A stretch of 64,000 nt of DNA, taken from Heterotrichella gracilis. Lineage: Eukaryota; Sar; Xanthophyceae; Tribonematales; Xanthonemataceae. Position numbers and translations under genes: made by a program. Positions 52,605-61,600 of this stretch are shown piece by piece. The notes under the pieces were generated by a model that was not told where the DNA came from, made no database searches, and worked only from the letters and a program-made list of their open reading frames with translations. The first letter of the stretch is position 1, and each line of letters begins with the position of its first letter. The stretch covers positions 1 through 64,000 of the forward strand of contig JAULBX010020743.1 in the NCBI GenBank assembly GCA_032358255.1, in the 5' to 3' direction.

Positions 52605-55600
52605 TCACACGTCGTATATTACTCCCACCTGCACCAGGTCCTCTGAGGGCACCTTGTAGGTGTCGTGGGGATCCGCCTGCATGAGCGACACCATGGTGCG
52701 GAAGGCGTAGTTGATCATCAGGCGCTTGAAGAAGGTGCTGCCCTGGGAGCACACAACCTGCGGGAGGGGAAGGGGGGGTGAGGGTGCAGGGTAGGAATGG
52801 AATGCCAAGGAAGGGGAATTGAGGGTGCAGGGTAGGAATGGAATGCCAAGGAAGGGACAGGATTGGTACTTGACTCAGGGGGGCCCACTCCTCCTGGATA
52901 GTCCTGTGCTACTCTCACTCCCTGGTTTGGGATCGTCGCTGAGTTATGGGCCAACACATGCCTCCCAAGGCGCATTCCCAGGACTTCTTGTTAACCAAAC
53001 CCCCCACCCCCCACCCTACACCCTCACCTGTGACTTGCCCAAGACGTACATCATCAGCTCATTCTCCCTCGCCCTAACCCCAAACCCTGCCATAGTACCC
53101 TACACCCTCACCTGTGACTTGCCCATGACGTACACCACCAGCTCGCTCTCCCTGGCTGTGCTCACAAGCTGCACCTCCTTGGCCAGGCGCTGCACGCGGT
53201 TGGCATTCAGGGACAGGGGCTCATCATCTGGGTCGTCGCCAAACGCTTGGAGCACCTGGAAACCACAAGGGAGGGTTTAGGGTTTCTATATTAGGGTTTG
53301 TGGTTGGCGTTCAGGGACAGGGCTCGTCGTCGGGGTCGTCCCCAAAGGCCTGGAGCACCTGGGAACCACAACGGAGGGTTTCGAGTTCGGAATCAGCCCA
53401 CAACGCCTGGAGGGCCCGGGAACCACAGCGAAGGGTTTTTGGTCATTGCCGAAGACCTGGCAAGACTTGAGATCCACACCCAACAAGGCAGGGTTGGAGA
53501 GTTGTGCCAGGCAAAATTACACTTGCAGGTCCTGAAAGCTAGCAAGCTGACTTCAAGCAAGGTTACGCAGCGGCCTCAGCCCCAAATGACCCACTTCTGG
53601 TATAAGCAGTGTCAAACAGAACTTGCCACCACAAAATCCTTCCGCACACCCACCTTGATGGACATCCTCTTTGCCTGGCGGACCGACGGGGTTTCCCTGA
53701 GTTGACCGCGCTGCATCCCCGGGAGTGGGGGCAAGGGGGGGAGGGGGGAGTGGCTCTCGGATGCCGCGTGCACTGATGCGGGGGTGGAGGGGGTTTTCTG
53801 CCAGAAGTGGGGGTGGGGGGTTAAGGGCTGGGACAAGGGGCAGGAATTAAAGGTTTTGTTTTACGTCTTAAGGTAGGTGGCCCTCGCAGCAGCAGGCAAG
53901 GGTAAAAAACACAATTGGATTCTAGTGAGAGAGTGTTGTCCCACCATCCCACACCACGAGATATATGCACTGACTCTTCCCTCCACCAATAACATCGCTT
54001 TGGGCTTTAAAGTTCAACAGGATACCGCCACACGTGCCATCGCCATGCCAGCAGCCGCACCACCAACCCATGCACCCAAAAGCATGGTCCAATAATAGCC
54101 CTCCACCCACCCACCCACCCACCCAGCCCCCAACCCGCACCTGCCCTGTCCCCAGCCCCTTCTCCACATCATCATCATCCCCATTCCCCCTGGTAGTGGC
54201 CAAATACACCCGCTCCAGGTCGCGGATGTTGAACACCACACCAGGACCCCCGCCCTGGCTGCCCACGCTGCGCATGGTGGGCATGCTGTGGAGGGTGCTC
54301 CCCGGGCTGGAGGAGTGGAGCTTCTGGATGACTGCGGGTGGGGGGGGTGGGAGGGGATGAGCGGGTGTTGCCAGTGGGTAGCGGGGGTGGGGAAATGCTG
54401 AAGGGGGGTTGGTTTATGCACTGGCAGGGGGCATGGTGAGGGGAAGGGGCGCAGCGCGAGGTGAAAGATTGCAAGATGAGTGGCCTGTGCATCGGGGTTG
54501 ACGGGAGGCAACAGGCACACACTCGCACGCTAACCACCGCCACCATCAGGAGCGTTCATACTACAAACCAGTAGTCCTGGCAGTCTTGATTATAGTATTG
54601 ACTAGATTGTACTTAAAGTTCAGGGTTTAGGATTGGAAAAATAACAGCCCTACCACCTTTGCAACCCCACCCCACCACCACCCCTAGGCTAGGGACCCAC
54701 ATTTGCGCATATGTGGGGGCAGGTTTAGGTCCCTGGCCGCCTTGTCCAGTGCAACTGGATCGGACCCGGGGTCCGGCCGGGGGGTAGGCACCGCGGGGGG
54801 GAGGGGTGGGGGGCGGGGTGGGGGAGCGGCTGGTGGTGTGTCGACCTTGCCAGTCCTGCAGCGATCAAAGGGGGGTGCGTGGGAGACCAGGTGCGCTCCT
54901 GGCACTGGGATTGGGCTGCAACCAATCATTGGTGGCGGAAGGGGTGCGACGGAAATCAGGATGAGAATGGTGACGGGGTGGCTTGTTGATGGTGGCAGGC
55001 CTCCCTGCATGGGAACAGGCAATAGCCATGTCCTGCCATGCCATGCAGTGCCCTGCACATATCTACAGCACTGTGCATAGTATGCCCCAACAAGGAAGCG
55101 ACCAGTCATGCGCCTACATGTGCCCCCCTGCCTCCCAACCCCCACAAAGACAATTGTGCCCTTTGCATGGCCGGTGAAGCTCACCGCAAGTGCACATTTA
55201 TGCGCCCCCATCTCTCCCACCCCCACCCACCTTCCCTCCTCCAACGTGGCCAGGTACACCCTCTCCAGGTCCCGTATGTTGAACACCACCCCCTTGCCCT
55301 GGCTGCCCACGCTGTGCATGGTGGGCATGCTGTGAAGGCTGTTGCCGGGGCTGGACGAGTGGAGCTTCTGGATGACTGCGGGTGGGAGTAGGAGGGGATG
55401 TCAGTGGGTGTGGCCAGGGTATTTCTAGAATGCACGGACAAACACTATGGCTGCAGGCGGAGTGGGGTGTGCGGTGTGTGGGCACAGCTACTGATGCTGC
55501 AATGCATGTACCCAATGGTGACCCTAAACCTTTGAACCAAGGCCACTAGGAGGTGCTCTTCAATGCCAGGCACATGGGTAAATTTACTTAACATTTTTTA

Positions 55601-58600
55601 ATGAAAATTTAGCCATGCATCTTAAATAATACAGCCAACAACAAGCAGCTGCAGGATGCACAGGCAACCCCAAGGTGGAAGAAAGTCAAGGACCCACATT
55701 TTCGCATGTGTGGCGGCATGTTGAGGCTCTTGGCCGCCCTATCCAGTGCAGCGGGGTCTGCAGTGGGGTCTGGCTGGGGGGAGGGGGGCGCGGGCAGGCT
55801 GGCCACATCACCCACGCTTGCACTCCTGTAGGGGGTGGGGACGAGTCAGACTTGGTGGGGATGGGGGGCAGTGGGCAGACAGTGCATGCACCCTGAATTG
55901 CGCAGCGAGGGTCCAGGCATTGGTGTGGTGACGACAGCCGTGCAGCATGCTGTGTTGGGTTGGGATTGTTGAGTTTGGAGGGCAAGATGTATCCCCCTAC
56001 ACTGTGATCACCAACCAAACACAGCTGTGGAGGATCTCCTCGCCTTGCATTGCTGACAAAAACCACAACACCCTCCCCCCTGCCACGGCACACAGGTGAC
56101 GATGTCCCCAAGCCTCCATAATCCCAGGGTCCACATACCTTTTTGGGGATGGCACATCCGTGGAACCAAAGTTTCCGTAAAACGAGCTGCGGCTGATTGT
56201 GTCCTGCATCTGCTGGAACAGCTTGCGGCTCAGGTGGTCAGTCATCTCAGTCACAAAGTCTGTACCCTGCGTAGGGTATTCCATGTAGCCGTAGCGGGCG
56301 ATGACGTGGTAGAAGCCAGAGGCCGACAGCTGGCTGGCCAGGAAACGCTCTCGGGGATCCACTTCGGGGATGGGGACGAACCTGGGGATTGAACACAAAG
56401 AAACTGTGTTATGGGCACAGCGTTTCATCTTGTTGTGAACCCAACCCATCCGAATAATCCATCCCATTATTTAAATCTCTACATGCATTGGCACTGGAGG
56501 ACTTCCAGGAAGTTAATGCAACCCAAAAAGGGCAGCAAAATGGGTCTATGCATACTCGAGCCAAGGCTCACGGCTTACCCAGGATGTGATCATGCCCACT
56601 GAACACCGCTTGCCAGCCAAGACAAAAACCAGACTTCTTCCCTTATGACTCACCTGATGGTTAGAATGACCACCACATCGTGCAGCACAGGGAATTTGGC
56701 CAGGAATTTTGACACCGTGGGGGGCAGCCCATCCAGCTCGCTGCTGTAGTAGATGCCCATCCCGGGGGTGCGGTAGATCTTGGTGCCCTTGTTCTTGAAA
56801 ACCAGGTCCCCGTCGTTCTCTGAAGTTTTGTCCACAGAGAAGAGGTCCTTGACCTGCACAGGGTTTTGAGCAACGGCGTGAAGTTGTGCATAGCGAGAAT
56901 TTAGGGGTTAGGGTTTACGGTCCTGGGCAACGGCGTGAAGTTGTGCACAGAAAGCAGGGAGCACTGCAGCATCATGCTTGCCAAAATGCACACTGATGCC
57001 CAAAGTACACAAGGAAGTGCACACTGGGTGGCCCCCAGGTATGTATACCGTGTGTGGCAACGGACTCCCTCCACAACATTTCAGAAGAAGAACACACATT
57101 CAAAAATGAATTAAAGTAGCATCAGGACAGATTTAAGTGGCGCATAAGGCCTGACTGTAACTGAAATGCAGGTCTCTTAGCAAAATCTAATTGACGCACA
57201 CCCCAGGCAAGGGTTTTCGTCAAGGTTTCCGGCCCTCACCCTGAGCACGTTGCGCATGTGGAATTCCTTCTTCTTGGTGGAGCCATACCACCAGGTGAGC
57301 ATGATACTCGAGTAGATGAGCGCCATCATGATGGAGAACCAACCCCCCTTGGGGATCTTCTCCACCGCGGATGACAGGAACAGGCCCTCGATGGCGGCGA
57401 ATACTACGAAGAAGATTGCGGGGAGGTACCAGGGGAGTATCCACACGGTGATCATGACCAGGGAGGTGAGGAAGGTGGTGAACAGCATGTCGCAGATGAC
57501 GGCCAGGCCTGTGGGGGGGGGACACTAACCCTTGAACCCTAAATATATACCCTAAAACCTACAGGTGGTGAACAGCATGTCGCAGATGACGGCCAGGCCT
57601 GTGGGGGGGAGATGCAAACCCTTAAACCCTAAACATAGACCCTTAAACCTACAGGTGGTGAACAGCATGTCACAGATGACGGGCAGGCCTGTGGGGGGGG
57701 GACACAAACCCTTAAATCCTACACATTGACCCTAAAACCAAAGGGTGGTGAACAGCATGTCGCAGATGACGGTCAGGCCTGTGGGGGGGGGGACACAAAC
57801 CCTTAAACCCTACACATTGACCCTAAAACCTACAGGTGGTGAACAGCATGTCGCAGATGACGGCCAGGCCTGTTGGGGGGGGACACTAACCCTTAAACCC
57901 TATATATATACCCTAAAACCTAAAGGTGGTGAACAGCATGTCGCAGTCGACGGCCAGGCCTGTGGGGGGGGAACACAAACCCTTAAACCCTACACATAGA
58001 CCCTTAAACCTACAGGTGGTGAACAGCATGTCGCAGATGACGGCCAGGCCTGCGGGGTGGAGATGCAAACCCTTAAACCCTAAACCCAGAAACCCTAAGC
58101 CCTAGGTAGCATGTCCCAAATTTGTCATTAATGACTGCCAGGCCTGCAAGTGGGGTGGTTTCAGACCTGTGGAGAGCAACTACCCAAACCCTTCCGCGGT
58201 GATGGGCTTTGATTGGCCGATACACAGCATGGCACATGGTGGTGTGCAATGATCCCACATGCGCCCTGGTCCACAACCATAGCAAACCCACTGTGGATAT
58301 GCGCTGTGCACCCAGCCCTACATTGAACAAGTGCACCTTCCCTAGAGTGCAAGCTCTTATCACCATCCAACCATTGCCCCACAACCCATCCATTATACTG
58401 TACCGTATGCGTTCCCCAGCTTGGTTGATGTCTGGAAAATGAGCACCACCACGATGGTGAGCACCAGCAGCATCCAGTTGATCAGCGGGATGTACACCTG
58501 GGACATGACAAGGGTTTAGGGTTTAAGAGTAGACAGGGGATGAACACTATGTCAGGGTGGAAGGGATGAGGGACAATGGTTTAGTCAGGACCAGCAGAGG

Positions 58601-61600
58601 AACCATAATATGATGGATACCAAGGCTAGACTGTGACATGGGTGCTCATGCAAGCAGGGGAGGCATGCAAGGCACCAACGACAAGCAACTGACAGGCAAC
58701 TTGAACTGCCCTTGGATGACAAACGCAGTCCCAGTCAAAGCCTGCATGGAAGGGAAAACACCCACCTGGCCATGCTGGGTACGCGAGGTGTGCTTGATCA
58801 CAAACTTTTAGAATTAATTTATTAATTTTCATATTTGGTTTTCTGTATTCTACCTGGCCGTGCTGTGTGTGGGAGGGTGTGCTTGATCACAAACTTTTCG
58901 ACTTTATTTATTAATTTTTATATTTGCTTTTCTGTTTTTTACCTGGCCGTGCTGTGTACGGGAGGTGTGCTTGATCACAAACTTGGGGAAGAAGCCGCTC
59001 TTGATGGCCTGGCTGACGATCGAGAACACCGCCGATATGAGCGCCTGGGAAGCCACGATGGAAGCCAGGGTGGCCAGCACCAGCATGATCCAGTAGAGGG
59101 AGGAGGGGGTGGCTGCCCAGTATGCGTTCTCCACCTGGTCCAGGTGGCGGGTGAGGAAGGCGGCTTGGCCTGGGGGCAAGGGGGGGAGGGGGTTTAGGGT
59201 TTAGGGTTTAGGTTGAGCAGTGAGGGGTGAGGAAGGCGGCTTGGGCCGGGGACAGGTGGAAGGGCTTTAGGGTGTGAGGTGGTGAGTGAGAAAGGCGGCT
59301 TGGCCTGGGGGCAAGGGGAAGAGGGGGTTTAGGGTTCAGGGTTTAGGGTGAGCAGTGAGGGGTGAGGGAGGCGGTTTGGCCCGGGGGCAAAGGGGGGGGG
59401 GTGGAGCGGGGTTGGTGGGGAGGCGAATGGAAGAGGGGAGGAGAGGAGAGGGAAGGGGTCACATGGTTGGAGGCCGCATGCGAGCTGGTGCAGCAACACG
59501 CATGGCACACATAGCGTTTCCCTGGAGCCATAGCCCAGGGTTCCCCACACCCCACAGAAGGCTTCCCCAACCCCTATCCAAGAATCCAGTCCCTTACCCA
59601 GGTTTGTCAATACCCAGGCAGGAAAGTACACCAGGCAAATTCCCACACCCTGCCGAGGGTTGACCTTAACCCTAACCAGGGTTTCCCTACACCCTCGCCA
59701 GGGGTCCCCAGTCCCTTACCCAGGTATGTGAACACCAGGCACGGGTACACCAGGATTGTGGCAGACATCTGGATGGAAAGGCGCGAGAAGTGGCCCATGT
59801 CGGCAAACAGGGCCTCAGTGCCTGCGCAACAAGGGAGAGGGCAGGTGTCAAGTACGATCCATGGCAGTGAAAAACCCTCATGCCTGGGCAAGGGGAAGGA
59901 AGCAGGTGTGGCGTGACGGGTGATTTCACAGACAAAAAGCACCTGTGTCTGCCCGAGGGGCAAAAAGCTGTCACATGTGGCAAGTGGCAGCAAACACGGC
60001 CTCCATGCCCAATGGCCTTTTTGGCGTGCCGTATCAGGCGAGCGGGCGGCGGGCACCGGCGGCCGCTAGCCTGAAAGGCTACGGCACAGCAATAGCAAAG
60101 TTAGAACCGCGATTTTCCTGAGTAGCGGTTTCTTGATTATTGCGTCCCCGTATGGATCATCCCTGGGATCCAACGCGCCGATTTGTATCCCCAGTGCATG
60201 AAACCTGAAGAGACCTCGCACGGCACGCCCCCCCTCGCTCCCGCGGAGCAGGTTATCTTCCTAAACAGCCCCATAGTCAGCCATGCACAGCACCTGGCAC
60301 ACAGGGCAACCCAAAACCCTAATCCCAGACCCTAATACCCACCTGTGACGCACAGCACGATCCCCGACAGCATCTGCCACCCCGCTGTGCCGTTTCTGGT
60401 GAAGAAGGTTATAAACTCCGCCGGATTTATGGCCTTGAAGACCCCCGGGTAGTAGTGGAAGATGTTGTACGCGCCAATGGAGGCGTTGAACAGCAACCAG
60501 AAAAACACGATGGGTGCAAACACAGTGGAGATCTTCCCGGTTCCAAACTGCTGCACATAGAATAGGCAGATGAGGATGCCGATGGTGATCCCGATGACGG
60601 TGTCTGCGGGTAGAGGGGGGCACAGGAGATATTAGAAACGATTGGAGGCGTAGAGGCGTGAAGTGGAGACCACTGCACATGGAATTGGTAAGGGGGATAC
60701 GGAGAATGGGGGCAAAAAAGGAGGTGATGAGGAGTATGGCAGAACTTGGGAAGCAGTAAGCATGCAAAGTGGGAATGGGACATTGTCACAGCAGGGGAGG
60801 GTGCACAGCCACAAGGGTTGTCGGGCACGAGAAGCGGCAAGGCCCTGTGGCGGCGTGTTTACCTCGTGTGATGCTTGGGAACTTGCTCTGTATTCCTTCC
60901 ACCGCTGACAGCACAGAGATGGCTGGGGTGAGGACGCCATCGCCCATGATCATGCCTGCGATCGGCACAGACACAAATGTTGACCTCAGTAATCAAACCA
61001 GTACGTGCCCATGACCAGCAGCTCAGCCACACAAAAGAGGGCCAACATCATACCCTATTCTAGGGTCCCTCGCTGCCGCCATATCGTCTCGCATATTGAC
61101 AATTTCCATGTATGTATTGCAACCATGGCCTGGCTGCAGACCCAATGCCCGTGTCATTTCCCCCCCTGTAGTTCTTCAATCCACCCTGTCCCACATGAAA
61201 CGCGGGACACCCCCTTGATCCCCCCTGCTTCCCCCCGTTATAATTCTTACCCACTCCAATGACCACGATGAAGCGCAGCGCGTTCTGCAGCCGCCTGTTG
61301 GTGCGCAGCCGGTCCCTCCAGGTCTCGCCCATGCTGCCCTTCTGGGATTGGCGCCCCATGCTGTAGCGGGTCAGCGCCATCTCCTGGGGAAGGCTTGGGT
61401 TGGGGCTCAGCCGGCCCTCCACGGAGCGGGAGAGGAGGGAGTAGAGCGCAAAGGTGCCGCCTGCAGTTGGGATAGGGCGGGTGGGCGCAAATAGGGAGTG
61501 AGGAGGTGGGCAACATCTCAAAGTGCGCGCAATTATCATCCTGGTAGGCTTAGGATAATAAGTTGTAACGCAGCAGGGGAATATGGTCCTGGCAGGGTTT

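Follow-up and report, generated by a model that had tools for sequence, protein, structure and literature searches.

A tandem array of exon-start copies in intron 8 of a KUP potassium transporter gene of Heterotrichella gracilis, with comparable copies at other exon edges

The question raised by this locus is what the copies of an exon start that lie, acceptor included, in the intron upstream of that exon are: small exons, competing splice sites or a device that regulates the gene. The window, i.e., the whole stretch of 64,000 nucleotides of contig JAULBX010020743.1 (assembly GCA_032358255.1) that was analysed, carries on its minus strand a KUP-type potassium transporter gene, recognized by the Pfam family K_trans (PF02705) with 117.9 bits against a cut-off of 24.8. 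Thirteen exons were read within 62905-55231 and join into an open frame of 789 residues, and the gene extends past them. Exon 8 (58404-58497, minus strand), identified by its reading frame and the Pfam match, ends in phase 1 (TAC G/gtacag), and exon 9 (57240-57508, minus strand), the source of the repeated edge, is an open frame conserved in 22 aligned homologues. Between them lies intron 8 (57509-58403, minus strand; 895 nt), which carries the array and is recognized from the common frame of its flanking exons and from a paralogous intron that matches it in codon and phase. In the KUP tree, the rows nearest to the window gene by path were Coccomyxa, Apatococcus and Myrmecia, and none of the starred sets comprising at most half of the rows contained the window gene, which the tree thus did not assign to a genus.

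Tandem Repeats Finder placed the array at 57473-58085 with a period of 90, 6.8 copies, 89% matches and a score of 972. Six intronic copies begin at 58049, 57959, 57869, 57778, 57688 and 57598, and the true exon 9 at 57508; five of the spacings are 90 bp and one is 91 bp, and the units fill the 3' 60% of intron 8. Each unit consists of the 35 bases that start exon 9 and 55-56 intron-like bases, in which a C-run is followed by the acceptor CAG, and CAG precedes every one of the six copies. All 35 exon-like bases are identical to exon 9 in copy 1 (58015-58049), copy 3 (57835-57869) and copy 6 (57564-57598), 34 are in copy 4 (57744-57778), and 33 are in copies 2 (57925-57959) and 5 (57654-57688), all on the minus strand. 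At the frame-keeping 36-nt position, T followed by GTAGGT stands after copies 1, 3, 5 and 6, and the GT is missing at copies 2 and 4. As exon 8 ends in phase 1, a 36-nt insert keeps the frame, and a copy identical to exon 9 adds LAVICDMLFTTC. The sequence-only reading from which this work set out had the coordinates of the array, its 90/91-bp units, the donors in four of six copies and the phase right, and its description of the array as recent or homogenised fits the identity of 33-35 of 35 bases to exon 9. A probable further copy, more decayed, follows a CAG at 58108-58143 (minus strand); its alignment to the exon-like 36 bases is gapped (shuffle p 0.0055) and its acceptor scores 11.8 bits.

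Among the six copies, nucleotide diversity (pi) is 0.046 in the exon-like part versus 0.126 in the intron-like part, and 4 of 35 exon-like versus 16 of 56 intron-like columns are variable (Fisher p 0.07). The codon changes relative to exon 9 are I>D, A>T, A>P and one synonymous change. The intron-like parts show a higher-order structure, in that copies 1-2 resemble copies 5-6 and copy 3 resembles copy 4, which points to the duplication of blocks of units. With head-to-tail units in the range of 10-100 bp and multi-unit rearrangement (period 90, 6.8 copies), the array has the layout of a minisatellite. When the whole assembly was searched with its DNA, it matched at its own locus only, apart from two matches that fall in a CCCTAAA repeat tract close to the beginning of another contig (C712). 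A dispersed element or introner, with copies at many loci, was rejected on this basis, and so was a second KUP locus on C712, where the matches are CCCTAAA repeats.

Splice-site strength was judged with weight matrices derived from 117 introns, which were inferred via a small codon-based gene model seeded with the KUP exons and trained on algal sequence totalling 178,245 bp on nine contigs; the exon edges are predictions of this model, which overlaps 11 of the 13 KUP exons. The true exon 9 has an acceptor of 13.3 bits (62nd percentile of the 117) and a donor of 10.9 bits. The acceptors of copies 1 to 6 score 14.3, 12.3, 10.4, 15.1, 13.0 and 13.8 bits, i.e., they lie between the 36th and the 76th percentile, and use of any of them without a mini-donor leads to a premature stop. 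The suggestion of a splice-competing minisatellite agrees with these six extra acceptors of 10.4-15.1 bits next to the true one. By contrast with the acceptors, the four 36-nt donors score 2.7 bits each, at the 5th percentile of the inferred donors, and introns contain, per kb, 14.35 GT sites that score as high or higher, so that no selection is needed to account for these donors. Use of the copies as mini-exons would imply introns of 54-55 nt, whereas the shortest of the 117 inferred introns has 61 nt and the next 92 nt. Inserts of one or four copies stay open in frame. The proposal that the array is a source of protein isoforms is thus possible as far as the frame goes, but the weak donors and the very short implied introns make the isoform-exon reading weak; the competing-decoy reading is plausible.

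The age of the intron relative to the array can be judged from the paralog. The KUP paralog on contig C365 has an intron of 237 nt at the same codon and in the same phase, which lacks the array, so that intron 8 predates the array. The 22 aligned homologues, picked from 120 listed of 7515 matches and not close relatives of the alga, have no insert at the joint AYG-LAV or its like. Among the matches listed, identity to exon 9 is at most 57%, which indicates that they include neither the species' own proteins nor proteins of close kin.

Copies of exon edges are found elsewhere in the same transcription unit, always on the minus strand; comparable copies, in KUP or in other genes, were absent from the sequence-only reading. 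In intron 7, a second ladder (58764-58984) repeats the end of exon 7 and its donor in three copies with a unit of 88-89 bp; the donors score 4.9, 3.9 and 13.0 bits, and the first of them is read as the donor in use. By eye, the third copy differs from the first over 14 codons by only three synonymous changes. A third array (59142-59386) repeats the acceptor and the start of exon 7 upstream of that exon with a unit of 135 bp, and its spacers are rich in CCCTAAA. In the 3' part of the transcription unit, an acceptor-type copy with a unit of 103 bp (53217-53387) adjoins a donor-type copy with a unit of 84 bp (53013-53156). Also by eye, exons 12-13 seem to be tandemly duplicated about 1 kb downstream (around 54800-54701 and 54331-54141, in the region 54141-55825).

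Such edge copies, here termed echoes, were sought on eight contigs by comparing a 50-bp query from each of the 319 exon edges that the model predicts with the adjacent noncoding flank; segments below 80 bp yield no edges, and the ninth contig (C9) contributes none. Kept out of the counts were C1, C111 and C442 (120 kb, bacterial in appearance) and C6 (10 kb, which reads N). The stretches read of C1, C111 and C442 have a GC content of 0.35-0.41 and long open frames, compared with a GC content of 0.55 in the window, and the assembly therefore probably includes bacterial contigs; intron-less KUP frames of 651-664 amino acids are present on C442, C111 and C589.

At a score of at least 18, direct copies were found for 22 of the 319 edges, 17 of them among the 176 edges outside the window's contig, compared with none for reverse-complement queries, two for mid-exon queries, and 0.05 per 319 edges when the flanks of other edges were searched (20 shuffles; 0.5 when self-pairs were allowed). 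At a score of at least 15 there were 27 echoes, at 12 of 161 acceptor and 15 of 158 donor edges, distributed over seven of the eight contigs (C4, 0 of 10 edges; C7, 6 of 19). The first 10 kb of C7, with these six edges and 24 exact TTTAGGG/CCCTAAA motifs, is the densest echo region sampled. The units measure 64-397 bp, 13 of the 27 falling at 81-96 bp, and nine of the 27 lengths are multiples of three; there is no preference for frame, and selection for frame across the set was rejected on this ground. Matches by depth numbered 22 of 319 at the edge, 23 of 312 straddling it, 14 of 299 just outside it and 24 of 968, pooled, at 100-400 bp away, where the frequency is thus about one third of that at the edges. 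If a copy decays more slowly when its partner is under selection, this could explain an excess of up to about twofold, and as the threefold excess is more than slower decay alone should give, something specific to the edges may act. A scan for direct duplications found 45, of which 21 have one copy in coding sequence (12.0 expected under random placement), 20 are noncoding (28.0 expected) and four are of other kinds (5.0 expected); two of the noncoding ones belong to KUP, namely the arrays at 57512 and 58786, for which the alignment stopped a little outside the predicted exon.

Whether the echoes are functional in general can be assessed from their sites and codons, and the evidence is mixed. 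The echoes contain two in-frame stops, and eight of the 27 alignments are gapped. Splice sites could be projected for 23 of the 27, the four without a paired intron being left out: GT was lost in five of 13 donor echoes, AG was kept in all ten acceptor echoes, and the echo sites were weaker than their partners (median 6.7 vs. 11.8 bits, n = 23, p 0.0006). The pooled nonsynonymous/synonymous ratio of the 27 echoes is 0.28 (61 and 61 changes over 787 and 254 sites, respectively), which would be below the value of about 0.5 expected if one copy were free and the other constrained.

The heptamer CCCTAAA/TTTAGGG, which we take to be the telomere repeat from what is known of green plants, was present in several of these regions; the CCCTAAA run near the start of C712 gives further ground for calling it the presumed telomere repeat. 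In 125 introns it was the commonest class of 7-mers among classes built from at least three letters. In the first 60 bp of introns there were 117 matches of the G form (median of classes of the same composition 3.5), and in the last 60 bp there were 208 of the C form (median 5.5), compared with 87 (median 28.5) and 27 (median 27) in other noncoding DNA, respectively; coding segments contained 13 heptamer matches in 40.7 kb. With refined splice sites, 21 of the 111 introns of at least 160 nt carry the G form within their first 80 nt and 6 within their last 80 nt, while the C form is present in 30 at the last and in 12 at the first 80 nt; among the 62 introns outside the window's contig, the corresponding numbers of introns were 13 and 2 for the G form and 17 and 8 for the C form. 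CCCTAA is densest 15-25 nt upstream of the 3' ends of introns, which is where a branch site would lie, with 8.1 per kb versus 0.45 per kb at 60-100 nt. Concentration and polarity of the heptamer were seen in introns of the window's contig (C208), C365, C2, C3, C5, C7 and C8. In the paralogous KUP intron on C365 (4941-5177 of the stretch read), CCCTAAACCCTAAACCCTAA, made of CCCTAAA repeats, directly follows the donor, against the usual polarity.

Telomere-like sequence, with one mismatch allowed, covers 0.30 of the adjacent 60 bp at 23 echo edges versus 0.13 at 220 others (p 0.0006); taken separately, the donor side gives p 0.005 and the acceptor side p 0.16. When exact telomere motifs were counted over 250 bp, the two groups were not clearly split (10 of 27 echo edges vs. 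82 of 292 others). Joint occurrence in one intron of the G form (5' end) and the C form (3' end) showed a trend only (8 of 19 vs. 20 of 95, p 0.077). Head-to-head telomere fusion as the origin of whole introns was rejected because the C365 paralog also has intron 8 and the co-occurrence is no more than this trend. We read the telomere-like sequence as serving as, or being tolerated near, splicing signals, and by analogy with known break repair a link of the repeats to the duplications is possible. A broader proposal would be that break repair near splice junctions leaves both edge duplications and telomere-like repeats, that UUUAGGG after donors and CCCUAAA before acceptors act as splicing signals, and that the KUP array is the extreme outcome; CCCUAAA upstream of acceptors would then supply the branch-site A and a C-rich tract, and telomere-type repair tied to splice sites would keep yielding decoy or new exon edges. 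We regard this proposal as unlikely. Among the papers listed from an open-licence library, none on telomere repeats as intron signals in algae was found, which is not proof of absence.

Taken together, these data favour, with a probability that we put at roughly 65%, an array that arose as a tandem duplication straddling the splice junction and expanded into a minisatellite of decoy acceptors, as the extreme case of the echoes. A short tandem duplication across the intron 8/exon 9 junction would have been the start, followed by expansion through exchange or slippage that spanned several units. The copy joined to the complete exon would have remained the functional edge and the intronic copies would have become decoy acceptors of nearly true strength, which the spliceosome must bypass, a failure resulting in a transcript with a premature stop. 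The decoys would be bypassed because presumably only the last acceptor precedes a complete exon with a good donor, in line with exon definition, and occasional inclusion of in-frame 36-nt pieces would be noise rather than purpose. From the clean direct units, the older intron, the recurrence of echoes at both edge types and their lack of frame preference, the combination of poor donors with acceptors of native strength, the stops after upstream acceptors and a precedent in plants, the potato RdRp gene (PMC4974935), we infer that the array arose by duplication, that splicing has this outcome and that no function has been selected. Against this reading stand the lower variability of the exon-like parts, the echo ratio of 0.28, the retention of AG in all ten acceptor echoes, the excess at edges and the fact that the edges are predicted.

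The lower variability of the exon-like parts would suit genuine 36-nt mini-exons with phase 1 at both ends, which would give KUP isoforms with one to four extra blocks of 12 residues at a transmembrane helix. Such exons would profit from the kept frame and T followed by GTAGGT in four of six copies and from the open one- or four-copy inserts, and in potato RdRp one such duplication has acquired a donor and undergoes splicing (PMC4974935). Nevertheless, we consider them improbable, as the donors lie at the 5th percentile among abundant equal sites, no inferred intron is as short as the implied ones, no donor follows copies 2 and 4, three of the four changed codons are non-synonymous and none of the 22 homologues has an insert. 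The stops that follow all six native-strength acceptors when no mini-donor is used would also be expected of a regulatory 'poison' device, in which use of an upstream acceptor lowers KUP output in a manner tuned by copy number; the intron 7 ladder, whose third donor is strong (13.0 bits) compared with the 4.9-bit donor read as used, points in the same direction. This is a rather unlikely explanation, though, since the echoes in other genes show no sign of a common function, the C365 paralog lacks the array and no conservation could be shown. That the array is an artefact of assembly is very improbable: it is known here from the assembled sequence, yet the differences among the units, at 20 columns of the alignment, form an ordered pattern, and six other contigs carry comparable echoes.

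The echoes and the intron-polarised telomere-like repeats are the more interesting result, on the basis of 178 kb of one assembly and of predicted edges. Seven nearly identical acceptors, only one of which is followed by a full exon, constitute a natural test of 3' splice site choice by scanning, exon definition or chance. If echoes were as common across the genome as the 22 in 319 edges, they would represent raw material for new exons and introns that could be observed arising and decaying, and the polarised telomere repeats offer a concrete hypothesis for breakage or duplication at edges.

Arrays of alternative cassette exons consist of repeated exon-like units of symmetrical phase, and so do the KUP copies, which have a frame-keeping length; they differ from such arrays in that their donors are weak or, in two of the six copies, lack the GT, their implied introns are tiny and no inclusion is known, and we do not count the array among them. 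Among the papers listed from an open-licence library, no repeat array that competes for splicing was found, which is not proof of absence. In the model of Rogers (1989), as given in PMC4974935, an intron is gained by tandem duplication of an exonic segment with AGGT; this shares with the KUP array a within-gene tandem duplication involving splice signals, but the KUP unit is more than half intron and intron 8 already existed, as the array-free paralogous intron on C365 indicates, so that such a gain does not apply. Small tandem duplications form in the repair of staggered breaks (PMC8355091), some telomere-repeat insertions in the horse sit in direct duplications of the break site, and the intronic share of human telomere insertions fits random insertion (PMC7215372). 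The short direct duplications of like size and the richer telomere-like sequence beside echo edges are reminiscent of these processes; in contrast to the human insertions, the repeat is concentrated and polarised in the introns of the alga, and a repair mechanism is only proposed here.

The closest case is the potato RdRp gene (Ma, Lan and Niu 2016; PMC4974935), for which the paper describes a tandem duplication of an intron tail and an exon head that recruited a donor and is spliced as a new intron and exon, as shown by RNA-Seq reads and dated via relatives; the gene also carries a second, 83-bp tandem duplication within an intron. In both genes, the direct tandem repeat takes in the end of an intron, acceptor included, and the beginning of the exon that follows. 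The potato donor was supplied from sequence at the new joint; in KUP, four of the six copies have GTAGGT as a candidate donor, at the 5th percentile of the inferred donors. The two cases differ in that potato has one such duplication, whereas the KUP array has six or seven units with weak donors, is accompanied by many echoes across the genome sample and is known from DNA alone. On the layout of its units, the KUP array looks like a potato RdRp-type event that has been expanded.
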